Below, piece after piece: positions 5,183 through 28,198 of a stretch of 47,741 nt of DNA; position 1 is the stretch's first letter; every line of letters starts with the position of its first letter. The notes under the pieces were generated by a model, which worked only from the letters and a program-made list of their open reading frames with translations, was not told where the DNA came from and did no database searches. Where the stretch lies: positions 1 through 47,741 of the IMG/VR virus record IMGVR_UViG_3300042876_000426; one strand, 5' to 3'. Position numbers and translations under genes: made by a program. This DNA comes from a virus.

Positions 5183-5709
5183 ACAACATGATCAACCCGC
5201 GCATTTTGCGCACTGCCCATCAACGTGTCGGTGATATGAGCCGGCCAGGCGTAAAGATCTATCTGCCGTCGTTTCGGTCGGCTGGGTTCTCGCGCTTTGG
5301 CCGTGGAGAATTCAAGACGGCCACGCAGGCCCGTCAACGGGCGGAGAAAGTGAAGACCCGTTGGGTGCGGTTGTATGACGCTGCGATCCTTTTCCGCTCA
5401 CGGGAAGTAGAAAACAAAGCTGATCATCCAATCCATGAAGATCTGGAACATATCGGGATGGGATTGGATTGTGCGGAATGCGGAAACCCTACCAGTTGGC
5501 TGCCCTGTTGGAATTGTTACGGCGAGGGTGGCCAGGACGATGAAGAATTGATGGAGGAAGATCCGCTCTGGTATGGTCCTGGCGATTATCGCCGATGTGA
5601 TGAGTGCCACGGACAGGGCGGGCATCCGTACTGCCTGGAATGTCGGAAGATCGTGAAAGTGGTCGAAGATAACGGAGTAACGAAATGCAAAAATCAAGCG
5701 GAATCTTGA
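5179..5709 (+). CDS. DnaJ-type CxxCxGxG zinc-finger protein
   Basis: The product is 176 residues with four CxxC pairs at residues 98-101, 110-113 (CWNCYGEG), 140-143 (CDECHGQG) and 152-155. This is the four-repeat layout of the DnaJ cysteine-rich domain, which binds two zinc ions and helps bind unfolded substrates. The N-terminal 75 residues are basic and helical (ARQRAEKVKTRWVRLYDAA), perhaps a nucleic-acid or protein contact. There is no J-domain here; it sits in the preceding overlapping gene, so the pair looks like a split DnaJ. The gene overlaps the start of the next one by 25 bases. Confidence 0.82.
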   Translation: MNNMINPRILRTAHQRVGDMSRPGVKIYLPSFRSAGFSRFGRGEFKTATQARQRAEKVKTRWVRLYDAAILFRSREVENKADHPIHEDLEHIGMGLDCAECGNPTSWLPCWNCYGEGGQDDEELMEEDPLWYGPGDYRRCDECHGQGGHPYCLECRKIVKVVEDNGVTKCKNQAES

Positions 5710-6383
5710 TGAGCGGCGCGATGGTAGTGGCCTGGCTGGCCGGCTTGAAGAACCAGACACGGCGCACGCGTGGATTGAACAAGATCAATGCGTCTCCCGA
5801 TGAATGGAGATTCAATGGATTGATGAACGGCGTCGCGGCGTTTACCCGCGACGGCAGTTCGTCTATTGGAATTCGAGCGCCATACGGATCTGTTGGAGAT
5901 ACGCTTTACTTCAAGGAAACCTGGAAGATGTGGGAGCGGGAAGAGGATGGAAGAGACTTTTTGCACTACCGCGCCGACGACGCGAAGATCGATCCCACCT
6001 GGTGGACAGAGGATGATTGGCGTGCTCCTGCTCCGTTCTGGTGGAAGAAGGATGTTTTTACGAAGTGGCAGCCGTCCATGTTTATGTCGTTTGGATGTGC
6101 CAGAATCCGTAACGTTCCGATCTTGAAGGTGCGAGTAGAACGATTGTGGAATATTACTGAAGACGACGCCATAGCTGAAGGAATCAATTTGATTGACCAT
6201 AACTGCTATGAGAATTATTTGGTCGGATCAGATTGGATGTATCACGGCAGAAACCAATTAGGCCAACACATGCTTGAAGATCCAATTGGAAGTTATGCAA
6301 GTCTATGGGACAAGATCAACGGCAAGACCCTTCCCTTTGATAAAAATCCCTGGGTATGGGTTTATGAGTTCCAGAAATACTAG
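5685..6383 (+). CDS. ASCH/PUA-like phage protein
   Basis: The product is 232 residues and resembles a widespread phage family with an ASCH-like (PUA-related) fold. Near the start is a 'modify, then TRR' motif (SGAMVVAWLAGLKNQTRR, residues 10-27), then GSVGDTLYFKETW (a match to the family's 'yG..GD.LwvrEtw'), then MFMSFGCARI and VRVERLWNITEDDAIAEGI. The last part matches the family's 'rasRi.L.i..vRveRlqdI.eeDa..EGi'. ASCH domains are thought to bind RNA or modified nucleic acid. The exact function in phages is not known. A GGAGTAACGA ribosome site supports the ATG at 5685. Confidence 0.8.
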   Translation: MQKSSGILMSGAMVVAWLAGLKNQTRRTRGLNKINASPDEWRFNGLMNGVAAFTRDGSSSIGIRAPYGSVGDTLYFKETWKMWEREEDGRDFLHYRADDAKIDPTWWTEDDWRAPAPFWWKKDVFTKWQPSMFMSFGCARIRNVPILKVRVERLWNITEDDAIAEGINLIDHNCYENYLVGSDWMYHGRNQLGQHMLEDPIGSYASLWDKINGKTLPFDKNPWVWVYEFQKY

Positions 6384-6391
6384 GTGAAACA

Positions 6392-6844
6392 ATGTGCCAG
6401 AAAAAAGAACAGCAATTGAAAATGGAAGCTTTTATCCGCGACCTGTTTGATGAGTTCTATCCAGATTGCGGAGATATTGACGGCGGTACATTGCAAAACC
6501 TCGCCGAGAAACACGGAATCCTTGTGCCAGAAATTTGCCACGAGCCTTGCGGTGAGTCCTGCAATTGTGCTGAGATGTGCGACGATGAAGAATGGAAGGC
6601 CGGCGTGCAATGTTATCGCCTGGCTAATTGGCTATCTGAAGCAAAGCCTATGGAAGGCAATGTGATTGCCCCGGAGCGCGTTGCGGTTACCAATCTCGTT
6701 CGCGCTGCCAATGGTTTGCTTTATTTTCGCCAGGGCATAATTGCGAAAGAGTTCGATAAATTCTCGCCGACGCTTTGTGGAGCATTGCATGATTTATCTA
6801 TGGCAGTAAAAGCCGTCGAGCAACGCATTCAAACGGAGGCGTAG
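6392..6844 (+). CDS. Hypothetical phage protein with cysteine cluster
   Basis: This is a 150-residue protein starting at the ATG after AGGTGAAAC. It begins with a charged helix (EAFIRDLFDEFYPDCG), then GGTLQNLAEKHGILVPEICHEPC and a dense cysteine group (CGESCNCAEMC). The 'DGGTLQ.LAEK.GLL' pattern recurs in small early proteins of many phages, with no assigned function. The second half is helical. The cysteine group could bind metal. It lies eight bases after the ASCH-like gene and two bases before the next gene, so it belongs to the accessory operon. Confidence 0.65.
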   Translation: MCQKKEQQLKMEAFIRDLFDEFYPDCGDIDGGTLQNLAEKHGILVPEICHEPCGESCNCAEMCDDEEWKAGVQCYRLANWLSEAKPMEGNVIAPERVAVTNLVRAANGLLYFRQGIIAKEFDKFSPTLCGALHDLSMAVKAVEQRIQTEA

Positions 6845-6845
6845 C

Positions 6846-7190
6846 ATGTCTTTTTCAGCCAGTCTTTACAACCTGAGAGCTGAAGTCATCAAGCACAATG
6901 ATGGTGATATCCATATTCTTCTGGGGAGCTTCTCTGGCGAACATTGCATGTCTCTCGACAAGGCTCTTGCACTACAAACCATTTTGCGGCTTGCCATCAA
7001 GAAAGCGGAATATGAGATCAAGAAATCCGTTGAATTGACGGGTATGCCCGAAGGAGCGAGGTGCTCCACGTGCGGGCATCTGGTTACGCCCGATAATAAA
7101 TGCCCTGTAGAAACACATCAATTTTTACATGAGCAGGCCGGTCATCCATTTTGCTACAAATGCGTCCAACCGCTTTGCAATAAGGAATAG
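6846..7190 (+). CDS. Hypothetical protein with zinc-ribbon-like C-terminus
   Basis: The product is 114 residues. The first 70 look like an alpha/beta unit (IHILLGSFSGEHCMSLDKAL, then an amphipathic helix). The end holds CSTCGHLVTPDNKC and, after a gap, CYKC and C, consistent with a zinc-binding ribbon or treble clef. The GGAGGCGTAGC ribosome site directly before the ATG is strong. I do not recognise the family. It is another small zinc-binding gene in this run. Confidence 0.6.
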   Translation: MSFSASLYNLRAEVIKHNDGDIHILLGSFSGEHCMSLDKALALQTILRLAIKKAEYEIKKSVELTGMPEGARCSTCGHLVTPDNKCPVETHQFLHEQAGHPFCYKCVQPLCNKE

Positions 7191-7194
7191 AAAT

Positions 7195-7680
7195 ATGGCA
7201 CTTGAAAGATGGTACGGCGAAGTGAAAACAATACCGGAAATGAACGTGCATCTCGACGGGACTCCTGATGTTCCTGATATTGTTCACCCTGGCGACTGGA
7301 TTGTTGAAACAGACGAACTGGGCGATGTGTATTCGCTGGTTACAAAAGTTTCAAAGCACAAGGACGGAGAATTTGATTATTGCCCAGGTGCTGAAAGTTG
7401 GACTATTCATCACCTGGGCATTGGATACATGACCGGAGAACGGCTATCGAAACATGATTGTTGCTTCATCAATGACATCGTTGCGGTAAACGGCGAGTTG
7501 TTGCCGCTTTACAAATTGGAGTGGAACGAAGAAACAACGATTCGGGTTTGCCAAAAACCTGATGATATTGAAGTACCGAAAGAAGTATGGTCCTTGATCA
7601 GGAGCATGAATAACTACGCTTCTTCCTGGACGCCAGGTGATCCATTGCAATTGAAACTTTTTTCCAACTGTGAAGAATAA
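7195..7680 (+). CDS. Hypothetical protein
   Basis: The ATG at 7195 follows AAGGAATAGAA; a longer frame from 7129 would overlap the preceding gene by 60 bases and start without a ribosome site. The 161-residue product is acidic, beta-rich and soluble (VHPGDWIVETDELGDVYSLV near the middle), with few cysteines. No motif is recognised. It lies in the accessory run between the zinc-ribbon gene and the Gp37/Gp68-type gene, and its end is 13 bases before the latter. Confidence 0.6.
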   Translation: MALERWYGEVKTIPEMNVHLDGTPDVPDIVHPGDWIVETDELGDVYSLVTKVSKHKDGEFDYCPGAESWTIHHLGIGYMTGERLSKHDCCFINDIVAVNGELLPLYKLEWNEETTIRVCQKPDDIEVPKEVWSLIRSMNNYASSWTPGDPLQLKLFSNCEE

Positions 7681-10687: not shown

Positions 10688-12145
10688 ATGGGAGGCATGG
10701 TCGCAAAAAACAAGTACAACTACGAAGAGATTCGCCATCAGATCATCGATGCGCTAAAAAACGGAGCGCCGGCGAGCTGGCCCGCACTGGCACGGATCGT
10801 GAAATTGGATATTGGCACCCTGCGCACAGCTGCGAAGCGTGAATGGGACGTGAATGATCCAAAGGATTTATTGGGGGAAGCGCTGTTACCCGAACCACCT
10901 AAAAAACTTGGAACCACTGTAACCGAAGAAGGAAATACACTTGAGATCGACCACGTGGTCGGCATGGTAACCAGCCTGGACGATGCGCTTCGAGCCAGCA
11001 ACACGGATTTGAACGCCTGGATTGTGCGCGACCATCAAATCAACTTTTGGCCGATGGGAATGAAAATAAAGGACAGTGACGGCAACGAGCAGCCTTACGC
11101 CATGCAGTTGTGCCAGGTAAAGGTCTGGCTGATACGAAAAGACCTGAGGCCGCTCATGCCTGTGATCGCTCCCGTGGAAATTATATTTCGCACAGACGTT
11201 CGAAAAGCTGCCCGGGTAGGGAAACTGCCGCGGTTGAAACAGGGTCCCGAACACGGTCGGGAGAGAAGCGAAGGTCTGAAGCGGGCGTTGATATTGGCCG
11301 ACCCACAGGTGGGATTCCGTCGTAGGCTGCACACCTCGGATCTGATCCCGTTCCACGATCGGCGCGTTCTTGACCTGGCGTTACAGATTTCCCATGATGT
11401 GCCATTTGACTCCCTGGAGATCATTGGCGATACGCTGGATTTGAGCGAGTGGTCGAGCAAGTTCAACCCCGAACCCGAATTTTATTGGACTACCCAGCCG
11501 GCGCTGGTAGAATGGGCCTGGTGGCTGGCACAATTCCCGCAACCTATGAAGCGCCTGAGCGAGGGAAACCACGAGAAGCGGATGCGTGACCTGGTAGCAG
11601 TATACGCCAAGGCAGCTTATGGATTGCGAGCTGTGGACGAGCTACATCTTCCTCCTGCGCTGAGCGTAGACCGCCTGATGGCGTTTCACAAATTGGGCGT
11701 TCAGTATATGACTGGGTATCCTGACAATAAATACTGGTTGAATAAAAATGTATTGATATTACACGGGGACGTGGTTCGTTCTGGCCCAGGGGATACGGCG
11801 AAAGCGATGGTGAACAAGACAACCTATACCAGCGTGTTCGGGCATATCCACCGGCGGGAATTGGTGTCACGTCGCATCAAAAGCAGAGATGGAGACGTGT
11901 TCCAGACGGCGTTTTGCCCGGGGTGTGCATGCCACATTGATGGACGTGTACCTGGTTCGAAGAGCGATGATCAGTGGCAGCAGGGATTGGCGGAGATCGA
12001 GTACACGGATGATTTCGAAATTATCACGCCAATCCCGGTTGAGAACGGGCGGGCAATCTATCGCGGTAAAATATTTACAGCTCGAGCGGATATTGATCGG
12101 GAAGTGGATGCGATGATCCGCTCGAAACTATTTCCAGATGCGTAA
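10688..12145 (+). CDS. Calcineurin-like metallophosphoesterase
   Basis: The product is 485 residues. The first 60 look like a small helix-turn-helix unit (PALARIVKLDIGTLRTAAKR). The catalytic domain starts near residue 200: ADPQVG (204-209), GDTLDLSEW (247-255), GNHEKR (293-298), LHGDVV and GHIHR follow in the order expected for two-metal phosphoesterases. The first motif has Gln where the family often has His, which is seen in some phage members. Such enzymes act on nucleic acids or phosphoester metabolites; the substrate here is unknown. Fusion with a DNA-binding N-terminus favours a DNA-directed role. The ribosome site of the ATG at 10688 is weak, and an ATG at 10697 is a possible alternative. 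Confidence 0.85.
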   Translation: MGGMVAKNKYNYEEIRHQIIDALKNGAPASWPALARIVKLDIGTLRTAAKREWDVNDPKDLLGEALLPEPPKKLGTTVTEEGNTLEIDHVVGMVTSLDDALRASNTDLNAWIVRDHQINFWPMGMKIKDSDGNEQPYAMQLCQVKVWLIRKDLRPLMPVIAPVEIIFRTDVRKAARVGKLPRLKQGPEHGRERSEGLKRALILADPQVGFRRRLHTSDLIPFHDRRVLDLALQISHDVPFDSLEIIGDTLDLSEWSSKFNPEPEFYWTTQPALVEWAWWLAQFPQPMKRLSEGNHEKRMRDLVAVYAKAAYGLRAVDELHLPPALSVDRLMAFHKLGVQYMTGYPDNKYWLNKNVLILHGDVVRSGPGDTAKAMVNKTTYTSVFGHIHRRELVSRRIKSRDGDVFQTAFCPGCACHIDGRVPGSKSDDQWQQGLAEIEYTDDFEIITPIPVENGRAIYRGKIFTARADIDREVDAMIRSKLFPDA

Positions 12146-19219: not shown

Positions 19220-19428
19220 AATCAAAACCATCCCGCATCAAACCAAAGCCGTCAGGTGCGTCTGACGGTTTTGTATGGATATGGGTCTGCCGACTGTGTG
19301 AGAGTCCCATTCTGGAAGTGGGTGGCCGTCGCTTCTTCTCGTGTCATTGCTGGCACGTCCACCAGTTCGAGCCGCGTCTGCCGTTCGGAATCGGGTTTTG
19401 TACGATCTGCGGATTCCCGAACTGGTAA
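19216..19428 (+). CDS. Small zinc-ribbon protein
   Basis: The product is 70 residues, and its ATG overlaps the preceding stop (ATGA), so translation is coupled. After a basic Lys/Pro/Ser start it has CRLCES, then CHCWHVH and CTICGF, enough ligands for one or two zinc sites. The same stretch is partly open in the frame of the next gene, but the coupling and cysteine pattern favour this one. The function is unknown; it may bind DNA or a head protein. Confidence 0.55.
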   Translation: MKSKPSRIKPKPSGASDGFVWIWVCRLCESPILEVGGRRFFSCHCWHVHQFEPRLPFGIGFCTICGFPNW

Positions 19429-19450
19429 CCATATTGTTAGTGTCAACAAA

Positions 19451-20605
19451 ATGATCAACTTCCTAATTTGGCGAAACCGTGACAAAGCCGACGCACTGGT
19501 GAGTGCGCTCACTGCGCACGGCTACCAGGAGACAACCAATCCACGCCTGGCTGACATGGCGCTGATCGACTATGAGCGGCAAGGCAGCCTATGTCAACTC
19601 GAAGAGATGCGCCGGCATGGCAAACCCGTTTTCGTTTATCCTCACGCGGCGCGCACGGCCATGATTTGGGACGGTCTGGTGGAACCGTGGAAACATACAG
19701 CCTGCAATTTCGTGTTTGCGGAAGGGCATCGAGAGATCATGCAGGCATACGGATATCCATTTCCCGTGGAAGTGATCGGATGGACCTACTCGCCTGTGTT
19801 GCCGTTTCAACCATCCGCTTCCAGCCTGGACGGGAAGCGGTTGCTGTTCGCCCCGATCCATCCCAACGCCCAGAAAGGCAGTTTCGCTGAAACGGATAGA
19901 GACGCCAACGCCACGGTGTTTCGAAAGCTGCTGGATCTGCTCGAGGTGGCACCCAGCCTGACGGTCCGTGTGCGCTATGGTCGGGACATCGATGAGAACG
20001 GCCTGTGGCAACCCAGCGGACTGGATAACCGTTTGACGTGGGAAATAGCGCGATACGACCTGGCCGACTCGATTACGTCCATGCAAAAAGCGGATGTGGT
20101 AATCGGTCACAACACGTTTGCATGGATGGCGGTCGCAATGGGAAAGCCGACGGTAATGTTTTCCGAAGCGACTACGCCGCACAATGTGAATGTGTATGTG
20201 CGCTCGTGGCAAAAGTACTGTCATTTGACTGAATATCCCCTCGACTTGTTGACCAGCGCCGACAATATCAACGCCACGGCCGGCTTGATTGGTCGGGCAT
20301 GCCTTGGCGGGGAAGACGTTGAAACTTGGAAGCGGCGCATGATTGGGGAACCATTCGACGGGGCGCGGTTCGTGGATCTGTTGGAGCACTACGCCAAGGG
20401 ATCACAGCCTGCGCCGGCAGATGAACAACCCGATTGGCGCTGCATAAAATGCGGCTTGCGCGTGGATCCGTTTGTGAAATACTGCCAGCCATGTTTGCAG
20501 TTTTACGGCATCCCTGGTCGACTGAATCGCTTCGAGCGCGGGAAATATCCACTGACGGACGAAGAGCGACACTCCATGTTCCGGGAAGATAGGAGGAAAA
20601 GGTAA
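19451..20605 (+). CDS. Glycosyltransferase-like (GT-B style) protein with C-terminal zinc ribbon
   Basis: The product is 384 residues from the ATG at 19451. The layout suits GT-B nucleotide-sugar or CDP-glycerol-type transferases: an N-terminal Rossmann-like half (RHGKPVFVYPHAARTAMIWD, then FVFAEGHREIMQAYGYPFPV), and a C-terminal half with SITSMQKADVVIGHNTFAWM followed by AVAMGKPTVMF, which matches the 'ad.vig..St...Ea...G.P.v' acceptor motif. It ends with CIKCGLRVDPFVKYCQPC, an unusual fused zinc ribbon. No other sugar gene is nearby. It might modify capsid, DNA or a surface glycan. The identification is moderate, and the activity is inferred. Confidence 0.6.
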   Translation: MINFLIWRNRDKADALVSALTAHGYQETTNPRLADMALIDYERQGSLCQLEEMRRHGKPVFVYPHAARTAMIWDGLVEPWKHTACNFVFAEGHREIMQAYGYPFPVEVIGWTYSPVLPFQPSASSLDGKRLLFAPIHPNAQKGSFAETDRDANATVFRKLLDLLEVAPSLTVRVRYGRDIDENGLWQPSGLDNRLTWEIARYDLADSITSMQKADVVIGHNTFAWMAVAMGKPTVMFSEATTPHNVNVYVRSWQKYCHLTEYPLDLLTSADNINATAGLIGRACLGGEDVETWKRRMIGEPFDGARFVDLLEHYAKGSQPAPADEQPDWRCIKCGLRVDPFVKYCQPCLQFYGIPGRLNRFERGKYPLTDEERHSMFREDRRKR

Positions 20606-20754: not shown

Positions 20755-20780
20755 AAAGCAGGCCTTAGCCTGCTTTTTCT
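20755..20780 (+). terminator. Rho-independent terminator before the 20.8-28.1 kb cassette
   Basis: A nine-pair perfect stem (20755-20763 with 20768-20776), tetraloop CTTA, T-run to 20778. It isolates the upstream head genes from the promoter that starts one base later. Confidence 0.9.
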
Positions 20781-20781
20781 A

Positions 20782-20810
20782 TTGACAATTATTACCCTAT
20801 GAGGTAACAT
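20782..20810 (+). promoter_or_regulatory. Promoter with overlapping operator-like dyad
   Basis: TTGACA at 20782-20787, exactly 17 bases, then TAACAT at 20805-20810: a good sigma-70 promoter. A dyad TTACC(6)GGTAA spans 20792-20796 and 20803-20807, lying in the spacer and the -10 box, where a repressor would block RNA polymerase. The start codon of the first cassette gene is 28 bases after the -10 box with AGGAGA before it. Confidence 0.8.
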
Positions 20811-20838
20811 ATAGGCAAGCAACCACAGGAGACAGACA

Positions 20839-21192
20839 ATGATCGCACAACTCACGCAACAAACGCAGTACGGCAAACAGGGCACCATTGGAATTAACCT
20901 TCTATCTGAACTGAGTGAAGATCCTATCACCTTCGCCGCTCATTCCGTTCAGGATGCGGTAGAGTGGGCTTTGTCCTACCCGCTTTTTCAGGACGCCGAA
21001 GTCGAGAAGTTTGAACGCATTGTTACGATCAACTCCAAGTGGCAGCCCCGCGTCAAAAGCGCGTTCGAGGAAGCTGGACTGATCGAGTGGGAAAATGGCA
21101 TAGAAAAAGCAGAATTCGCTCGTGCGCAGATGATCATCAAAGAGATCAATACAATCTACGAGAACACTGGTTTCCAGGGTTTCAGGAAATAG
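20839..21192 (+). CDS. Hypothetical protein, first gene of the cassette
   Basis: The product is 117 residues, soluble and mostly helical, with one Gln/Thr-rich start (MIAQLTQQTQYGKQG) and charged helices later (AEVEKFERIVTINSKWQPRV). It starts 28 bases after the regulated promoter and has an AGGAGA ribosome site. No motif is recognised. Being the first gene behind an operator-like site it might be a regulator or a protein needed early; there is no clear HTH, so this stays open. Confidence 0.65.
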   Translation: MIAQLTQQTQYGKQGTIGINLLSELSEDPITFAAHSVQDAVEWALSYPLFQDAEVEKFERIVTINSKWQPRVKSAFEEAGLIEWENGIEKAEFARAQMIIKEINTIYENTGFQGFRK

Positions 21193-21202
21193 GAGAACAT
21201 CC

Positions 21203-21934
21203 ATGAAAAAGAACTTTTCCGATATGACAGTTGGTGAGTGCTTTGTGGTCGGTGAGGTAGATGAGTTTTATCAAGATGGATATAAACTGTCTGAAACTGA
21301 AGCGTGGGTTAATGAGTGTGGTGCGCAGCGAGCTGGGCGCAAACAGTTGAGCGGCGAGTTCGAGGTAACTGGTAAAACAGTGGATGTCCACGCCACAGTT
21401 ACAGACATCGAGTGCGTTGCGCTCACTCTGGTGAATGATGGGCAAACCATTCATCCTGTTCTGTCTGAATGGAAACAGGCGGTGTTATCAAATCCCGATG
21501 AAATGCGGACGTTGGACGAATTCGCATGGGATAATCGAGACATGGAGGTGAACAATGAGTTCACGTTGAAGGGAATTTGCGATCACTATGGATATGCCTT
21601 CCCGCGTCGCAAATACGACCGCGATATTCATTTATTTTGCCTGATTTGGGATCATCAGCCAGCTGGAGAATATACATACGATTCGATTGTTTCAAAAGAA
21701 TATCGTAATAACGGTGGAAGTTTTGATGCAGCACTCATGGCGTTGTTGGATGCCGTGGTTGATTATCGTCAACGTGGGCGCGTCAGCGGGGAAAATACAA
21801 CGACGATCAATGGACTGGGCGGTCCCTTACTCAACGTCACCACATCACTTGCGGCGGCTATTGTTGAATATCACCACCGATATATCAACAATGTTCTTCT
21901 TCGAGAAGATCTTATGAAACAGGGTGGAGCATAA
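21203..21934 (+). CDS. Hypothetical protein
   Basis: The product is 243 residues from an ATG after AGGAGAACATCC. The N-terminal third is acidic and beta-rich (GECFVVGEVDEFYQDGYKLS), then a region with alternating strands (FEVTGKTVDVHATVTDIEC) and a helical C-terminus that ends in ITTDISTM-frame-free sequence LLREDLMKQGG. I do not recognise any family. It lies ten bases after the first cassette gene and is probably cotranscribed. Confidence 0.6.
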   Translation: MKKNFSDMTVGECFVVGEVDEFYQDGYKLSETEAWVNECGAQRAGRKQLSGEFEVTGKTVDVHATVTDIECVALTLVNDGQTIHPVLSEWKQAVLSNPDEMRTLDEFAWDNRDMEVNNEFTLKGICDHYGYAFPRRKYDRDIHLFCLIWDHQPAGEYTYDSIVSKEYRNNGGSFDAALMALLDAVVDYRQRGRVSGENTTTINGLGGPLLNVTTSLAAAIVEYHHRYINNVLLREDLMKQGGA

Positions 21935-21936
21935 CT

Positions 21937-22470
21937 ATGTACGCCTATCAGGTAGGCCAACCTTACAACCAAAATCGCCAGCAATGGCCTGAAGTCATCC
22001 AATATAACTACCGCGGCGGGGAACATGAGTTGGTCCTGTTTCTCAACTCCCCCACCGCGGATGAGATTCGGGATGTTGCCAAGGGCGAGGCGCGGTTTGC
22101 GCTGTACGCTAAAGATAGCCAAATCGTTTTGTTGTTCAAGTTTGGCGATTCGATTGCCTGGAGCGATGCGCCGTATACGTATCACCGCATCCCTGCCGAT
22201 CAGCAACAGCGAGCACCAGAGATTACCGCCAAGGATTTTGTGCTGTTGCATGTCATCCTGGTAGATGCTGCCACTGGAATTATTAAGGCACTGCGCGTGA
22301 TTGGGATGCAACCGCCATTTGCGCAGGCGCTGCACCGAGCCATCAACACACAGGCGGATATGGTGTGGGACCCTGCTGAGTATGATCGCCAGTTGCAGGC
22401 GCTTTTCCGCAAATATAACTCGCACCAATTGGCGCAGGTGTCGAAAGTCAAATTTTCAAGCAAACTATGA
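21937..22470 (+). CDS. Hypothetical protein
   Basis: The product is 177 residues. Strands and helices alternate: GEHELVLFLNSPTADEIRDV, GEARFALYAKDSQIVLLFKF, FVLLHVILVDAATGIIKALR, then a helical tail with QALHRAINTQADMVWDPAEY. The compact alpha/beta pattern suggests a folded single domain, but no motif is diagnostic. The start is two bases after the previous stop, and its own stop overlaps the SNF2 start (ATGA), so it is translationally coupled to the helicase and probably works with it. Confidence 0.6.
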   Translation: MYAYQVGQPYNQNRQQWPEVIQYNYRGGEHELVLFLNSPTADEIRDVAKGEARFALYAKDSQIVLLFKFGDSIAWSDAPYTYHRIPADQQQRAPEITAKDFVLLHVILVDAATGIIKALRVIGMQPPFAQALHRAINTQADMVWDPAEYDRQLQALFRKYNSHQLAQVSKVKFSSKL

Positions 22471-24446
22471 TTCTTTCGCCTGTCTCCACGGTCACCGAAA
22501 CCATTGCCAGAGTGTATACCTCTGGTAATGGTCTGTTTTGCTCATTCAAGGAGCACAACGAAATATTTCGCAAGCATGTGAAGGGCGTCTCTATGGAGTG
22601 GTCGGAACAGTATCGCGCCTGGATGCGGTTACTGAACATCGAGACGAACGGCCAGCCACAGGATCGAGCCGCTGAACTGGTAGGTAGGTTGATCGGCGCC
22701 GGCTTTATGTGCGAGGTGAATGAGCAAGTGGCTGAATTGGTGCGTCTTGGAACGTGGAAGCCGGAGCAGAAGCGCTGGGTAAAATTCATCGAAGGCAAAT
22801 ATCATTTGCGTTGGCGCGGCCAGGATGACAATCTATATCATCGCTCGTTGATGCTCCCGGAGGCGTCCTGGGATAGCAGCACAAAATGCGTGTCGGTTCC
22901 ATCCATTTATTTTTCCGAGGTGATAGGCTTTGCTGAAGAACACGAGTTTCAGTTTACGCAGAAGGCGCTGGAAAGCATCGAGGATTCAAAGCGCGAATAT
23001 CAACGGGTAATCATTCCTGAAGTTCCAGCACCGCGAAAAAAGAAGGAAGAAAAGCAAGAACATTCCTATAAACTTGAAAAATTTATGGATGTGCCGGTTC
23101 GCAACATCCAAACGACAACTGCGCTCTTTCCACACCAGATACCGGCAGTTGAGAAGGTCGCTCCAATGCGTGTGGGTGCCCTATTTATGGACATGGGGAC
23201 CGGAAAGACGCGTTGTGCCATTGAGTTGGTGGAGCGCCGACAGCAACGTATTAGCCGTGTAATCTGGTTCTGCCCAGTCAGTCTCAAACTGACCGTGGCG
23301 GCAGAAATCAGGAAGCACACCAATAGCACAGATATTCACGTGTTCGACGAAAAGGACGATGTCCCGCCAGCTTTTTGGTACGTGGTTGGGATTGAATCCA
23401 TGTCGAGCAGTGACCGCGTTGTGGTTGCCATCCACGAATTGATCGACGCTGACACGTTCGTGATCGTGGATGAGTCCAGCTATATCAAAGGTCACGCTTC
23501 GAAGCGATCAATGCGAATTACTGAACTTTCAATGACGGCGCGATATCGCCTATTGCTGACGGGAACGCCCATTACCCAGGGCGTGGAAGATCTTTATGCT
23601 CAGATGCGTTTCCTGTCTCCTGATATTCTCGGCTATGGTTCGTTCTACTCGTTCGCCAAGAACCACCTCGAGTACAGCGACAAATACCCTGGCATGGTCG
23701 TGCGAGCGCTCCACGTCGGCAACATCGCCGACAGAATATCGCCCTTTGTTTATCAGGTGACAAAAGAAGAGTGCATGGACCTGCCCGGGAAGCTCTACGA
23801 TCAATTTTATTTTGGCCTGACAAAGGAACAGCGAGACGCATACGAACAGGCCAAGGAAGAAATCATTGGCGGCATCCTGGACGAGCTTCCCGACTATATT
23901 ATTTTCCAGTTATTCACAGCGCTTCAGCAGATTGTTTCGGGATTCTGGAACCGCAACGGGACGGAATTCATTCGACTGCCACATAAACGCGTTGAGACGT
24001 TAAAAGAAGTGCTTTCTGGCATACCAGAAAGCAAGAAGGTCATTATCTGGTGCAAATACGTGGAGAGCGTGAAGCAGATCGCCGATGTGCTGCCTGGTTG
24101 CGCTCTCTATTATGGAGATCTATCCGAGAAACAGCGAGACGAACAGTTACAGTTGTTTCGCGGGCCGGCGCGTTTTCTGGTTGCGACTCAGGCTACTGGT
24201 GGACACGGTCTGACCTTGAATGAGGCGCATTATCACGTGTTTTACGAGAATGAGTTCAAGTACAGTCACCGTGTCCAGGCGGAGGACCGTAGCCACCGAA
24301 TCGGCCAGACCAAGCACGTCACCTATATTGACATCGTTTCTAATTCTGGCATTGATCGTCGTATCATGGCGGCGATCTCGAAAAAGGAAGATGTTGTGAA
24401 ATCGTTCAAGCACGAGGTCAATAAACGAAAGGTCAGCGAACTATGA
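22467..24446 (+). CDS. SNF2-family (Swi2/Snf2) helicase-like ATPase
   Basis: The product is 659 residues. Residues 1-215 are an extra N-terminal domain. The ATPase core has FPHQIPAVEK (Q-motif region), MGTGKT (243-248, Walker A), VIVDESSYIK (motif II, DESS in place of DEAH), LLLTGTPIT (motif III), ATQATGGHGLTL (motif V) and QAEDRSHRIGQ (motif VI), the last being diagnostic of SNF2 proteins. These translocate on double-stranded DNA and remodel protein-DNA complexes; unwinding is usually absent. It is coupled by ATGA overlaps to unknown genes on both sides. In phages it may assist replication or clear host proteins; the cassette suggests a link with modification. Confidence 0.92.
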   Translation: MILSPVSTVTETIARVYTSGNGLFCSFKEHNEIFRKHVKGVSMEWSEQYRAWMRLLNIETNGQPQDRAAELVGRLIGAGFMCEVNEQVAELVRLGTWKPEQKRWVKFIEGKYHLRWRGQDDNLYHRSLMLPEASWDSSTKCVSVPSIYFSEVIGFAEEHEFQFTQKALESIEDSKREYQRVIIPEVPAPRKKKEEKQEHSYKLEKFMDVPVRNIQTTTALFPHQIPAVEKVAPMRVGALFMDMGTGKTRCAIELVERRQQRISRVIWFCPVSLKLTVAAEIRKHTNSTDIHVFDEKDDVPPAFWYVVGIESMSSSDRVVVAIHELIDADTFVIVDESSYIKGHASKRSMRITELSMTARYRLLLTGTPITQGVEDLYAQMRFLSPDILGYGSFYSFAKNHLEYSDKYPGMVVRALHVGNIADRISPFVYQVTKEECMDLPGKLYDQFYFGLTKEQRDAYEQAKEEIIGGILDELPDYIIFQLFTALQQIVSGFWNRNGTEFIRLPHKRVETLKEVLSGIPESKKVIIWCKYVESVKQIADVLPGCALYYGDLSEKQRDEQLQLFRGPARFLVATQATGGHGLTLNEAHYHVFYENEFKYSHRVQAEDRSHRIGQTKHVTYIDIVSNSGIDRRIMAAISKKEDVVKSFKHEVNKRKVSEL

Positions 24447-25333
24447 TTTTTATTGGCCTATCGGACAACGAGAAACGCGAGCGTATCGAGCAGTTCCGCG
24501 CCGAGAATGACATTCAAAAGACGGTGGTAATTTCGGCGGATGAATTCCCGCTTCTCATTCCAGGGACTGACCAGATTAAATACAGCGACGTGATCATGTA
24601 TGTTACGTACTATCGTCTTCTACAGGAAATTGATAGGCGCACTCTGATCGTGATCAATGAATGTTTACGAACGCAAAACCGCTACGACCTGGCGTACAAC
24701 TGCATCCGCAACTACCTAAACCAAACATCGCATCAGTTAATCTTTCAGTGGATTCCGCAGATCGATACATGTGAAGATTTCATGATTTTGTTTGATTTCG
24801 ATACTCGCAGTCGCTGGAAGCGTCGGCCATTTGACCCGTTCTTAATCCAACAGGAAAGCAAAGTCATGGTCCAACCGCTTTCGATATTGTTCAAGAGCGA
24901 AGACGTTCCGACGTCGGAAAAGACCAGGACGAAATACAACCAGGAACGGGAGAAAATGTTCCGTGAACTGGGCAACAGAGATCCGCACATCATCCCGCGC
25001 AATCTCTATCTACTGAGCGGTCCCGACAAATTGATCCACATCAATTCGATAGACATGCCGTTATTTTCGGAAAGCAACCAGCTCTACGTATCACGCAACA
25101 AACGCTTGAACTCGGATCGGATCGTCACCTACGAAGATGTTCAGGCCGGCGGACGATATGGGATCGTAGAGCTACCACACCGATTTATTGATTACTGTGA
25201 TTTTATTCGCGTAACTGGACAGGTAGAAAGCAATGTTCTAGTGGCAGACCTGAAAGTAGATCACTGGTATTTCAACCGTTACAACGAATGGAGTAGACGC
25301 ATCCATGACACTTACGCAAGTTTATCGGCATGA
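24443..25333 (+). CDS. Unknown protein coupled to SNF2 and IbrA-like genes
   Basis: The product is 296 residues; its ATG overlaps the SNF2 stop and its end overlaps the IbrA-like gene by 29 bases. The N-terminal half alternates strands and helices like a P-loop or Rossmann fold without a Walker A: KTVVISADEFPLLI, SDVIMYVTYYRLL, RRTLIVINECLRT (a Walker-B-like NE) and HQLIFQWIPQID. A charged linker follows, then a beta-rich end with Tyr, Trp and Asp. This has some resemblance to degenerate kinase or NTPase folds, but I cannot assign it. The tight coupling says it is a component of the same machine. Confidence 0.65.
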   Translation: MIFIGLSDNEKRERIEQFRAENDIQKTVVISADEFPLLIPGTDQIKYSDVIMYVTYYRLLQEIDRRTLIVINECLRTQNRYDLAYNCIRNYLNQTSHQLIFQWIPQIDTCEDFMILFDFDTRSRWKRRPFDPFLIQQESKVMVQPLSILFKSEDVPTSEKTRTKYNQEREKMFRELGNRDPHIIPRNLYLLSGPDKLIHINSIDMPLFSESNQLYVSRNKRLNSDRIVTYEDVQAGGRYGIVELPHRFIDYCDFIRVTGQVESNVLVADLKVDHWYFNRYNEWSRRIHDTYASLSA

Positions 25334-26438
25334 TTGGAACGTGCTGAGCGCCGCTCGGGAGCGAATCGAGTTTATTTTCGACCAATTCGAGAATATCCAT
25401 GTTTCGATCAGTGGCGGGAAGGATTCAACTGTCCTGGCACACCTGGCGCTGATGGAAGCCAGGCGCCGCAACCGCAAGATCGGGATATTCTTTCTCGACG
25501 AGGAGGCTGTCTATCAAGCTACCATTGACCAGGTCGAGTACATCATGGAACAGATGGCGCCTGAAAATGTTATTCCGCTCTGGTTACAGATGGAATTCAA
25601 TCTGACCAATGCCACTAGCCTGACCGAGACACAGTTCATCCCCTGGGAGGCCGGCAAGCACAAATTGTGGTTGCGTCCAAAAAAGGACTACGCCATCAAA
25701 TTCCCCCAGTGGGACCGTTCTACACAGATCGTAGCCGACAAAAATAAGGGGTTCGGTTTCTACGATGTGTTCATGAACTTCGAGCGTTGCTACAGCAATA
25801 CGGCTTTTCTGGTCGGCTTGCGTGGCGTGGAGTCTCCGAACCGTTGGCGTACTGTCTCCAAAAACCCGTCAGATATCGGCGGAAATAAGATCTATTGGGC
25901 GACTACCGCCGGCAAGAATTTCAAGATGTATCCGCTCTACGATTGGAACTTCCATGATGTATGGCACTACATTTTCGAGAACAATCTTCGTTACCATAAG
26001 ATCTATGATTACCAGGTAAAGAAAGGTTATTCGATTACAGAGATGCGCATAAGTTCCCTTATCCACGAGAAATCGTTCAAGTCTCTTGTGGATCTGCCAG
26101 AATTCGAACCTGACACGTACAACAAACTTGTTAAGCGTGCTAAGGGAATATCCCTAGCGCAGGAGACAGGTAAGAATGCCAAGTTGTTCCGTGCCCGTAA
26201 GCTACCAAAGAATTACAACTCATGGCGCAAATACCGCGATTTCCTTCTGGAAACCCATCCCGACCCTTCGAAGCGCGATATCCTGGCCCGACGTTTCGCC
26301 GGTCACATGGATAATGAATATGTAGCACGCCAACAGGTGCGCCAGTTGATCCTGAATGACTACGAAAACAACCTGCCCGTTGACAATCAACCCGATCCGC
26401 GCCAGAAATGGATCGAATATTACATGGAGAACCTATGA
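25305..26438 (+). CDS. IbrA-like PAPS-reductase-family protein
   Basis: The product is 377 residues. HVSISGGKDSTVLAHLALM (residues 32-50) holds the SGGKDS PP-loop of the PAPS reductase/N-type ATP pyrophosphatase superfamily, used to adenylate substrates. The later GLRGVESPNRWRTVS and YPLYDWNFHDVWHYIFENNL match PAPS-reductase-like proteins, and the long C-terminal extension resembles DUF3440 of IbrA. The same superfamily includes DndC, which takes part in DNA phosphorothioation. IbrA was described in E. coli with IbrB as a regulator of immunoglobulin-binding proteins; the biochemical role is unknown. The next overlapping gene is a ParB-like IbrB partner, which strengthens the call. Confidence 0.82.
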   Translation: MTLTQVYRHDWNVLSAARERIEFIFDQFENIHVSISGGKDSTVLAHLALMEARRRNRKIGIFFLDEEAVYQATIDQVEYIMEQMAPENVIPLWLQMEFNLTNATSLTETQFIPWEAGKHKLWLRPKKDYAIKFPQWDRSTQIVADKNKGFGFYDVFMNFERCYSNTAFLVGLRGVESPNRWRTVSKNPSDIGGNKIYWATTAGKNFKMYPLYDWNFHDVWHYIFENNLRYHKIYDYQVKKGYSITEMRISSLIHEKSFKSLVDLPEFEPDTYNKLVKRAKGISLAQETGKNAKLFRARKLPKNYNSWRKYRDFLLETHPDPSKRDILARRFAGHMDNEYVARQQVRQLILNDYENNLPVDNQPDPRQKWIEYYMENL

Positions 26439-27037
26439 TCGAAAATATTCAGGACTATCTTACCGTGCGTGAAAGTATCCAGCCTATTTCAGTGGATAGC
26501 CGGCGCAAACAGAAAGTTTTGATCCCGTGCGTCAATACGCTGCTTGTGGCGCGTGATCTGGTGCAGGCGAACACCTATAATCCAAACGCCGTGCCTGACG
26601 AGAAGATGGAATTGCTTCGCCAATCCATTGTGGATAATGGATTCGCATTTCCCATCGTGACCATTTACGACCCAGACCTTCAAAAGTTCATAGTGATCGA
26701 CGGCTTTCACCGTTACGTGATCAGCGGTCCCGACTGGCTTGGAATGCGCTACGTCCCAATTGTCGTGCTCGAACACGACATGAGCAAGCGCATGACGGCT
26801 ACGTGGCAATTTAACAAGGCGCGCGGTGTCCACCAGGTGGACATGGACGCCGACCTGATCCGCGCTTTACTGGAACAGGGCATGAGCGAGGATGATATTG
26901 CCGCGCACTTAGGAATTGACCTGGACACTGTATATCGCTATAAACAGGTTACTGGCATTGCTGAGTTATTTAAAGGCGCACAATATTCGATGGCCTGGGA
27001 AATGAAGGATGTGGACGATGGAATGGAAATACGGTAA
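26435..27037 (+). CDS. IbrB-like ParB/Sulfiredoxin-fold protein
   Basis: The product is 200 residues from ATG 26435 (ATGA overlap with the IbrA-like stop; GGAGAACCT ribosome site). ParB N-terminal features: NPNAVPDEKMELLRQSIVDN, then GFAFPIV, KFIVIDGFHRY (88-94, the conserved 'vidG.hR' box) and NKARG (127-131, the N..R box). A helix-turn-helix follows at about 150-175 (MSEDDIAAHLGIDLDTVYRY). ParB-fold proteins bind CTP or act as nucleases; in IbrA/IbrB pairs the role is unsettled. It probably directs the IbrA-like enzyme or the next methyltransferase to DNA. Confidence 0.85.
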   Translation: MIENIQDYLTVRESIQPISVDSRRKQKVLIPCVNTLLVARDLVQANTYNPNAVPDEKMELLRQSIVDNGFAFPIVTIYDPDLQKFIVIDGFHRYVISGPDWLGMRYVPIVVLEHDMSKRMTATWQFNKARGVHQVDMDADLIRALLEQGMSEDDIAAHLGIDLDTVYRYKQVTGIAELFKGAQYSMAWEMKDVDDGMEIR

Positions 27038-27671
27038 CGCGTGGGATTTATTCCCAATCAAGGAAGGCGAAATATGGGGAATCCCAGGGCGAGCAATGGT
27101 TGCAGTCCATAATCTGTTTGAGCCGTTGCCGGCCTGGGTGAGGCCCGACCTGCTCTTCGTTGATCCACCTTGGAATCTGGGAAACGTAAACTCGTTTTAT
27201 ACCAAGGCCGGACGGGAAGACTACCTCGATACGTTTAGCCAATTCACAGACGCTTTTTTTGGTCGAGTGACAGAGATCAACCCGCAAACAGTCTACATTG
27301 AGATCGGAAAACAGAACGTCGAGAATTACTTCGACCGCCTGGCAGAGCTCTACCCAAAATTGCAGCGATGGTCAGTGCTTTATTATCGTAAACATCCCAC
27401 CTGGATCATCCGCGGGAGTAAGTACGACAACATCGGTTTCGATTTCTCCGGGATGGATGAGGCCGACTGCATCTCGAAGATCGCTCTGATCGAGAATTAC
27501 CGGACAATGGGTGATATTTGCATGGGACGCGGGCTGGTCGGCCTCGCTGCCTACAAAGCTGGGAAGCCGTTCGTCGGTACGGAACTCAATAAACGCAGAT
27601 TAGCATGTCTGCTTCAGGCTCTATCGAAAATCGGAGCACCAATTCGGAAATTGGAGATGTCCAATGAATAA
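27018..27671 (+). CDS. DPPW-type DNA methyltransferase (N4-cytosine or N6-adenine)
   Basis: The product is 217 residues. DLLFVDPPWNLGNVNSFY puts the catalytic DPPW at 49-52. The SAM motif appears late, GDICMGRGLVGLAAYKAGKP, with GTELNKRRLACLL after it. This order, catalytic motif before the SAM motif, is that of the beta group, or of MT-A70-like and phage orphan enzymes. The GRG in place of FxGxG is unusual. No target-recognition domain of size is present, so another protein, perhaps the ParB-like one, may give specificity. It overlaps its neighbours on both sides. The start could also be GTG 27009. Confidence 0.82.
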   Translation: MEWKYGNAWDLFPIKEGEIWGIPGRAMVAVHNLFEPLPAWVRPDLLFVDPPWNLGNVNSFYTKAGREDYLDTFSQFTDAFFGRVTEINPQTVYIEIGKQNVENYFDRLAELYPKLQRWSVLYYRKHPTWIIRGSKYDNIGFDFSGMDEADCISKIALIENYRTMGDICMGRGLVGLAAYKAGKPFVGTELNKRRLACLLQALSKIGAPIRKLEMSNE

Positions 27672-28098
27672 AAAACAGCCTTTCGCCATTCACACGATCC
27701 GCCCAGATGAACCAGGCATGGAACCATTGAAGGTCGTCCTCCCCAAGGATGGAACGCGCGGCCTGGTCATTGGCGAGGATTGGGAAGTGCGCGCCTTGTA
27801 CGATCTGATAGAAAAATATCTGGAGAATGGCAAGCACTCCGGCCAGATCGAGGATTACCACGAGCAGTTAGGGACCGCATGGATCACCACCGTTGACGCC
27901 GCTTCACTTGCAGAGCACAGCGGGCATCCTGGCATACCAGAGCGGACCATCCGTTGGGCCGCTTCACATGGATATATTCGCGGTGCTCAAAAGCATGGCC
28001 GTGACTGGCGCTTTCCACGTGCGACGTTTTTGTATTGGCTGAAAAATCGTCCCAAGCCTGGAAGGAAAGCTGAAGCACTTGCACACATTGACATATAA
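27664..28098 (+). CDS. HTH DNA-binding protein, last gene of the cassette
   Basis: The product is 144 residues. The C-terminal 60 resemble an excisionase/MerR-like winged helix: TTVDAASLAEHSGHPGIPER, then TIRWAASHGYIRGAQKHGRD and WRFPRATFLYWLKNR. The N-terminal part is a short beta-rich extension. Such proteins bind DNA as regulators or as excisionase-like adaptors. As the last gene it could bind the dyad at 20792-20807 and control the cassette. The ATG overlaps the methyltransferase end by eight bases, with TTGGAGATGT before it. Confidence 0.75.
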   Translation: MNKKQPFAIHTIRPDEPGMEPLKVVLPKDGTRGLVIGEDWEVRALYDLIEKYLENGKHSGQIEDYHEQLGTAWITTVDAASLAEHSGHPGIPERTIRWAASHGYIRGAQKHGRDWRFPRATFLYWLKNRPKPGRKAEALAHIDI

Positions 28099-28141
28099 CG
28101 CCTCGATTGCCTTTCGCGTAGAATAGGCATAACAAAATCAC

Positions 28142-28198
28142 TGTAAGCGCCGAGAGCGCAGGAGACCCTTTGCGGGTTTTCTGCGCTCTTTTTATTTT
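28142..28198 (+). terminator. Two-tier hairpin with U-run, copy 1 of a duplicated element
   Basis: Outer stem 28153-28161 with 28181-28189 (agagcgcag), inner stem 28165-28168 with 28174-28177 (accc/gggt), T-run from 28187. It ends the cassette but stops only about ten bases before the ATG at 28208, leaving no room for a promoter. A near copy, including the flank tgtaagcgcc, is at 35068-35123, also just before a structural gene. It may be a terminator that late-gene antitermination overrides, or an mRNA processing site. Confidence 0.8.

Follow-up and report, generated by a model that had tools for sequence, protein, structure and literature searches.

Gene block inside the head region

The nine ORFs at 20839-28098 of the window (the whole 47,741-nt stretch of viral DNA analyzed here) are all encoded on the plus strand and lie inside the head-building genes of the virus: the upstream flank comprises terminase and portal genes, and the downstream flank encodes a structural protein as well as the head maturation protease. 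The ORF coordinates agree with the first-pass annotation, including its overlapping or abutting starts from 21937 on, where neighbouring genes overlap by 4-31 bp and gene 3 abuts gene 2. Of the neighbours named there, the downstream head protease was recovered, but the label "glycosyltransferase-like" has no Pfam or PHROG match behind it. The block consists of (i) local cargo without family match in the profile libraries (gene 1, 20839..21192; gene 2, 21203..21934), (ii) an optional member (gene 3, 21937..22470; PHROG 12389, E 2.8e-50), (iii) genes 4-8, and (iv) a local gene for an HTH_17-type protein (gene 9, 27664..28098; HTH_17, 3e-5). The only other occurrence of genes 1, 2 and 9 was in a contig of 100% identity.

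Putative transcription signals

A promoter-like sequence, TTGACA-17-TAACAT (20782..20810, plus strand, 10/12 consensus matches), lies upstream of gene 1. Its spacer and -10 element are overlaid by an operator-like dyad, TTACC-N6-GGTAA (20792..20807, perfect 5+5), the single perfect copy in the whole window. Both elements are present as first read, but promoter-like sites are no more common in the region than in shuffled sequence (9 seen versus 10.2 expected), and the assignment of a candidate promoter and operator is therefore positional only. The strong terminator-like hairpin described as closing the block was found at 28152..28190 (plus strand; 17 pairs, 9 of them G-C, T tail). A second terminator-like hairpin, assigned by consensus match only, is located 5' of the block (20755..20776, plus strand; 9-pair stem followed by a T-rich tail).

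Protein families and conserved motifs

Gene 4 (22467..24446) encodes an SNF2 ATPase (Pfam SNF2, 5e-17; Helicase_C, 3e-13) with intact helicase motifs I, II, III and VI (GTGKT, DES, GTP and RxxRIGQ) that are conserved in 33 aligned copies; its N-terminal domain is fused here and encoded by a separate gene in most relatives. The product of gene 6 (25305..26438) is an IbrA-like PP-loop ATPase matching Pfam PAPS_reduct (1.3e-15) and DUF3440 (3.9e-9), both over cut-off. Overlapping it by 31 bp, gene 7 (26408..27037) codes for an IbrB-like protein of ParB/Srx fold with a C-terminal HTH (PHROG 2159, E 3e-45) and a conserved DGxHR motif. Gene 8 (27009..27671) encodes a permuted DPPW N6/N4-type DNA methyltransferase-like protein, recognised by its motifs: DPPW and the C-terminal SAM motif I are conserved in 53 copies. 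The window copy stays below the Pfam threshold (16.0 bits versus a cut-off of 26.7), and a relative in locus L042 passes the N6_N4_Mtase cut-off. The Pfam and PHROG matches, together with the motifs, bear out the labels SNF2 ATPase, IbrA-like, IbrB-like ParB, DPPW methyltransferase and HTH that these proteins and gene 9 had received from the sequence. The profile libraries revealed no recognised nuclease among the nine window proteins.

Gene 5 (24443..25333) had been listed as unknown and indeed matches none of the profile libraries searched, but its fold had been missed. In its AlphaFold2 model (pLDDT 92.3), 288 of the 296 residues can be superposed on SNF2 ATPases (Z 18.5, rmsd 3.5). The Walker A motif GxxxxGK[ST] is degenerate, with G kept in 56/56 and K in 52/56 copies and the second Gly and Thr/Ser lost, and motif II reads NE in most copies. 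Since the model comprises the whole two-lobe SNF2 fold but no working Walker A, the gene 5 product represents a new family, a free-standing two-lobe pseudo-SNF2 protein. This kinship is visible from the fold only, as there is no sequence relative in the PDB and an hhalign comparison of its profile with that of SNF2 proteins fell short of significance (probability 1.8). The model of the gene 3 product is likewise confident (pLDDT 95), but a search of the PDB for its fold gave no hit at E 0.001.

Recurrence of a four-protein core

Across 56 non-redundant loci from IMG/VR and bacterial contigs, gene 5 is directly followed by the IbrA-like gene (55/55 loci) and the latter by the IbrB/ParB gene (50/51); the DPPW methyltransferase gene is present in 52 of the 56. 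The core of pseudo-SNF2 protein, PP-loop enzyme, ParB-like protein and methyltransferase is thus widespread in viruses, and the module occurs, with identities of 33-80%, in viral contigs and in bacteria belonging to several phyla. Cultured bacteria carrying it include Clostridium luticellarii DSM 29923 and Anaerobacterium chartisolvens DSM 27016. The region 21937-27671 accordingly recurs as a unit in unrelated viruses, and its genes do not recur only separately. Of the nine-gene unit originally proposed, genes 4-8 recur and gene 3 adjoins the module in about a quarter of loci (13/56), while genes 1, 2 and 9 are not conserved. A megablast search of the phage collection returned no close DNA relatives; none of 50,697 phage records matched gene 5, although 215 of them contain IbrA relatives. 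A search of the accessible published papers yielded no description of the core unit, and the four-protein viral machine is apparently undescribed as a whole.

IbrA/IbrB pairs also exist without gene 5, as would be expected if the block were independent cargo whose genes are neighbours by chance. For the block as a whole this is improbable in the extreme: order and adjacency are kept in more than 50 divergent loci, and the driver position described below has been swapped repeatedly. Independent cargo is refuted for genes 4-8 and stands for genes 1, 2 and 9.

Exchange of SNF2 and Csf genes

The position of the putative targeting component ("driver") beside the conserved core is occupied by SNF2 only in 34 of the 56 loci (the type of the window), by Csf only in 17, by both in none and by neither in 5 (Fisher p 2.7e-10). 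A second, CysH-like PP-loop gene is present in 16/17 Csf loci versus 1/39 other loci. Exclusivity extends to whole virus records: Csf2 is found in 0/25 SNF2-type records, the window included, and module-type SNF2 in 0/14 Csf-type records, two of which gave weak generic matches only. The Csf2 profile had no match in the window record and matched four Csf-type records in the same search. Identity of the Csf genes in the sister loci was established with PADLOC type IV profiles (Cas7, to 7e-81; Cas5, 1e-53; Cas8, 5e-57; Cas11, 2e-36), and these loci combine type IV-B-like Csf1, Csf2 and Csf3 genes, in nearly all cases, with the CysH-like gene. In the tree of gene 5 and IbrA, about 9 swaps between SNF2 and Csf are seen, at least 6 of them forced by strong branches. 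SNF2 and Csf have thus been repeatedly exchanged and are mutually exclusive beside the core. The SNF2 ATPase assignment of gene 4 was confirmed, but its interchangeability with type IV-B-like CRISPR genes had gone unrecognised. A candidate third driver, the IscB/IsrB-like ORF that adjoins the module in locus L038, was rejected as an insertion, the near-identical sister locus L082 lacking that part.

Relation to known systems

With the IbrA/IbrB pair (YbdN/YbdM of E. coli K-12; PAPS-reductase and ParB genes of phages), the module shares a PAPS_reduct plus DUF3440 protein directly followed by a ParB/Srx protein, but the known pairs lack the pseudo-SNF2 protein, the fixed methyltransferase and the driver. 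The Csf and CysH-like genes of the sister loci match those of plasmid type IV-B CRISPR-Cas systems (Csf1, Csf2, Csf3, Cas11, CysH-like); in contrast, the window is devoid of Csf2 and type IV-B loci of actinobacterial plasmids are devoid of genes 5-8. DISARM, Zorya, Dpd and type 4 BREX have single parts in common, either an SNF2 helicase (DrmD, ZorD, DpdE) or a PAPS reductase (BrxP), but none is known with the gene set of the module and the matches are generic or weak; among the nine proteins, generic DrmD-type SNF2 matches were obtained, and DrmA/DrmB were not found with them.

The Dnd system (DndABCDE) likewise pairs a PP-loop enzyme with a ParB-superfamily partner, DndC being accompanied by the ParB-like DndB, and DndH contains an inactive SNF2 lobe (PMC10853773). 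IbrA and DndC belong to the same PP-loop superfamily and weak DndC matches were obtained, so that DNA phosphorothioation or another sulfur modification by a DndC-like IbrA, as initially suggested, may be considered. Such chemistry is nevertheless very unlikely, because the window IbrA has a single cysteine; over 55 relatives, no cysteine is strictly conserved, whereas SxSGGKDS is invariant in 55 loci. In the proposed comparison with DndC, the PP-loop held up and the conserved DndC cysteines are missing. The DndC profile TIGR03183 scored 16.9 bits against a cut-off of 290.4, profile libraries revealed no DndA, DndD or DndE among the nine proteins, and a published analysis argued against such sulfur modification for the related CasCysH (PMC8175902). 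The module further differs from Dnd by its methyltransferase and free-standing two-lobe pseudo-SNF2 protein.

Proposed function

With moderate confidence, we regard the core as a phage-borne DNA-modification machine with interchangeable targeting drivers. The chemistry would be provided by the methyltransferase-like gene 8 product and by gene 6, whose PP-loop enzyme belongs to the ATP-pyrophosphatase type and may adenylylate a carbonyl or carboxyl group. The pseudo-SNF2 protein of gene 5 and the gene 7 product, which joins a ParB/Srx fold to an HTH, would keep these enzymes on duplex DNA, and a separate driver would carry the complex to its target. In the window this driver would be the active SNF2 ATPase of gene 4; in sister viruses it would be a complex of type IV-B-like Csf proteins, accompanied by a CysH-like PP-loop protein of its own. 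The mark would likely serve to protect viral DNA, or to mark or silence competing DNA. The earlier proposal of a modification or counter-defence machine fits the recurring unit and the conserved motifs. The unit with its gene order, folds and motifs is established, as are the exclusivity and repeated exchange of drivers; the physical complex, DNA as its substrate, the nature of the mark and the purpose are inferred. A precedent exists in the phage methyltransferase homologue CmoX and the AMP-forming ligase CmoY, which are often encoded near ParB genes and hypermodify cytosine (PMC12783734). CmoA-CmoX-CmoY likewise combines a methyltransferase-type with an ATP-dependent AMP-forming enzyme, but from other families and with no SNF2 component described; a CmoA-like protein was not recognised among the nine window proteins. 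The sub-threshold score of the window methyltransferase counts against modification, and the IbrA-like enzyme could also act on protein, RNA or a nucleotide.

For IbrA/B, a co-activator role in the expression of prophage genes has been described (PMC4490671), which requires no base chemistry and likewise counts against modification. The module could then be a transcription regulator, in which IbrA/IbrB co-activate viral or host genes and the SNF2 and pseudo-SNF2 proteins remodel DNA-protein complexes without any new base modification. The ParB plus HTH protein and the operator-like dyad would suit this role, which is still unlikely: the SGGKDS PP motif and the methyltransferase motifs are kept over more than 50 diverse loci, implying catalysis by genes 6 and 8.

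Occupation of the driver position by Csf in 17 loci could also point to interference between elements. The module would then keep competing DNA from being transcribed or replicated while leaving it uncut, in the manner of type IV-A acting with DinG, and the PP-loop enzyme and methyltransferase would mark or poison the target instead of protecting the phage. Competition between elements has been proposed for type IV systems in reviews (PMC11656645), and SNF2 proteins are found in the defence systems DISARM and Zorya. We consider this fairly unlikely, given a window unit without recognised nuclease, Csf loci without nearby CRISPR arrays in a simple exact-repeat scan (which could miss degenerate arrays), and a conserved methyltransferase that would be unusual for interference alone.

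As an extension of the modification reading, the core, steered in some viruses by an SNF2 motor and in others by a Csf ribonucleoprotein of type IV-B, may form a targeted, possibly RNA-guided DNA-modification system. This is tentative and rather doubtful; since the repeat scan gave no CRISPR array, RNA guidance is put forward as a hypothesis only. The actinobacterial plasmid loci, where Csf does not need the module, count against the modification reading as a whole.

Implications for type IV-B systems

What type IV-B CRISPR-Cas does, and what its CysH-like protein contributes, are open questions (PMC8175902, PMC11656645). In our analysis, Csf complexes alternate with an SNF2 DNA motor in one position next to the conserved four-protein core, which gives type IV-B a testable partner. 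Because Csf and SNF2 share this position, Csf is predicted to act on duplex DNA and to recruit an adenylylating and methylating complex. In addition, the free-standing pseudo-SNF2 proteins define a family without library match, and the DNA of the cultured carriers C. luticellarii DSM 29923 and A. chartisolvens DSM 27016 is open to direct analysis. If true, a modification core directed by SNF2 or Csf would supply a function for type IV-B CRISPR systems.

Gene organization of the block

The nine ORFs of the first-pass annotation (genes 1–9; 20839–21192, 21203–21934, 21937–22470, 22467–24446, 24443–25333, 25305–26438, 26408–27037, 27009–27671 and 27664–28098) are all present exactly as described in the virus record of 47,741 bases, with seven genes tightly packed from 21937 onward and a hairpin of 17 pairs plus T tail closing the block. 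As also proposed, the block interrupts head genes, i.e., portal-side head genes on one flank and the head maturation protease on the other. The promoter-like site and its dyad are likewise present, but can be credited for position only, since promoter-like sites are as frequent in this region as in shuffled sequence. The supposed glycosyltransferase-like gene (19256–20605) has no Pfam or PHROG match. A terminator-like hairpin (13 pairs; 22500–22532) within the start of the SNF2 gene could serve as operon attenuator. Elsewhere in the window, PHROG matches indicate an FtsK/SpoIIIE-like protein (1412–2596) and a metallo-phosphoesterase (10688–12145).

Conserved module

Scanning viral contigs with the IbrA-like protein (gene 6) yielded 30 loci and the gene 5 profile 56 viral and 14 bacterial loci; 56 loci were kept after removal of near-copies. 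IbrA directly follows gene 5 in all 55 loci showing both, IbrB (gene 7) directly follows IbrA in 50 of 51, and a gene 8 homologue is present in 52 of 56. Identity to the window proteins is as low as ~33 %, implying long-term conservation. Gene 3 accompanies the module in 13/56 loci; outside the window, genes 1, 2 and 9 were found in just one contig, identical to it. Since recurrence thus differs by gene, the cassette annotated as one unit of nine genes comprises a conserved module (genes 4–8, optionally gene 3) and local cargo (genes 1, 2 and 9).

GNAT acetyltransferase genes adjoin gene 5, IbrA or IbrB in four compared loci (L042:7675–8004, L083:7534–8004, L044:7585–8004 and L102:14953–15414), and this repeated adjacency suggests GNAT to be an optional acylating partner. 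In contig L038, an IscB/IsrB-like ORF (5486–7363) with a PLMP-like motif, GIDPG and homing-endonuclease-like repeats (all by eye) lies directly upstream of genes 8 and 5; the IscB/IsrB-like part is missing from the near-identical contig L082, where the ORF is shorter.

Exchange of SNF2 and Csf drivers

The module is accompanied by either of two drivers, SNF2 without Csf genes (34 of the 56 loci) or type IV-B-like Csf genes without module-type SNF2 (17), never both (Fisher p 2.7e-10); the five loci with neither are mostly short contigs or have gene 5 close to the contig end. Csf genes were assigned with curated profiles, Cas11 being recognised in some loci, and share the module's strand in 16/17 cases; two loci (L077, L078) carry a Csf3-like gene as two tandem copies next to the module. 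Whole virus records confirm the exclusion: Csf2 is absent from all 25 of SNF2 type (window included), and the 14 of Csf type show nothing but weak generic SNF2 matches (about 1e-12) in two, compared with 1e-172 or better for SNF2-type records (some of them belonging to the query alignment). On a quick gene 5 plus IbrA tree without bootstrap, the driver changes nine times, at least six changes being forced by strongly supported branches, and a Csf-type locus (L087) joins the six-member SNF2 clade of the window with 99 % support.

A second PP-loop gene is present in 16/17 Csf loci versus 1/39 others; plasmid CysH-like proteins match the profile of these second genes at 1e-39 to 1e-49 and that of IbrA at 1e-3 to 1e-10. 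Five actinobacterial plasmid loci (L103–L107) and Skermania phage SPI1 (L101) possess Csf and CysH-like genes, genes 5–8 being otherwise absent, and a Rhodovastum atsumiense plasmid (L102) has Csf, CysH-like, IbrA, GNAT and IbrB genes without genes 5 and 8, possibly an intermediate arrangement. The Csf–module association is therefore modular, not obligatory.

Predicted properties of the module proteins

Gene 5 is matched by no profile of Pfam, PHROGs, PADLOC or NCBIfam, by none of 50,697 phage records (two different queries) and credibly by no PDB sequence. Its AlphaFold2 model (19 relatives; mean pLDDT 92.3) resembles the SNF2 ATPases SRCAP, CSB, INO80 and ISW1 (Z 16–18.5, up to 288/296 residues; Foldseek E 7e-8); the closest predicted viral structure is an uncharacterised phage protein of 297 residues. 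Across 56 sequences, G and in most cases K persist at the Walker A position, whereas the second G and T/S are not retained, and motif II mostly reads NE instead of DE. By predicted fold and motifs, gene 5 is a miniature pseudo-SNF2. Inactive SNF2 lobes, with proposed nucleic-acid or nucleotide binding, are described for DndH and PglZ; the available parts of these accounts contain no free-standing two-lobe inactive SNF2 (PMC10853773, PMC12839542).

Gene 4 retains all SNF2 motifs; its N-terminal region (22467–23099) lacks a Pfam match and, in most relatives, has its counterpart in an upstream gene of its own. Gene 7 encodes a ParB/Srx-fold protein with DGxHR and HTH. Gene 8 retains DPPW and the C-terminal motif I; the Pfam N6_N4_Mtase cut-off is passed by its L042 relative and failed by the window copy.

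SxSGGKDS, the ATP pyrophosphatase signature, is kept in 55/55 gene 6 relatives. The DndC-like sulfur role initially suggested for IbrA, and likewise true PAPS reduction, are argued against by its cysteines, of which the window copy has one and the relatives none strictly conserved; the sequence instead points to adenylylation. The CysH-like protein of type IV-B has been discussed in equivalent terms (PMC8175902).

Possible function

The most economical reading is a DNA-modification complex, since the PP-loop enzyme and the methyltransferase, both with their catalytic motifs conserved, would be combined with two proteins expected to hold DNA (ParB/HTH protein and pseudo-SNF2) and a swappable driver predicted to act on DNA. 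It ranks ahead of interference without any modification, of transcription control and of sulfur chemistry. The analysis establishes the unit with its folds and motifs, and the driver swaps; we infer this complex together with its substrate, mark and benefit. Chemical precedent is provided by phage CmoX/CmoY, where a methyltransferase homologue adds a carboxyl handle which an AMP-forming ligase extends, and whose genes often lie near ParB genes (PMC12783734).

The published papers searched (mostly open-access) do not contain the present gene combination, but do describe phage IbrA/B as well as type IV-B with CysH, of unknown function. The module is akin to multi-gene DNA-modification machines composed of PP-loop, ParB and SNF2 parts; as a stronger reading, we put forward a guided modification system common to SNF2 and Csf drivers.
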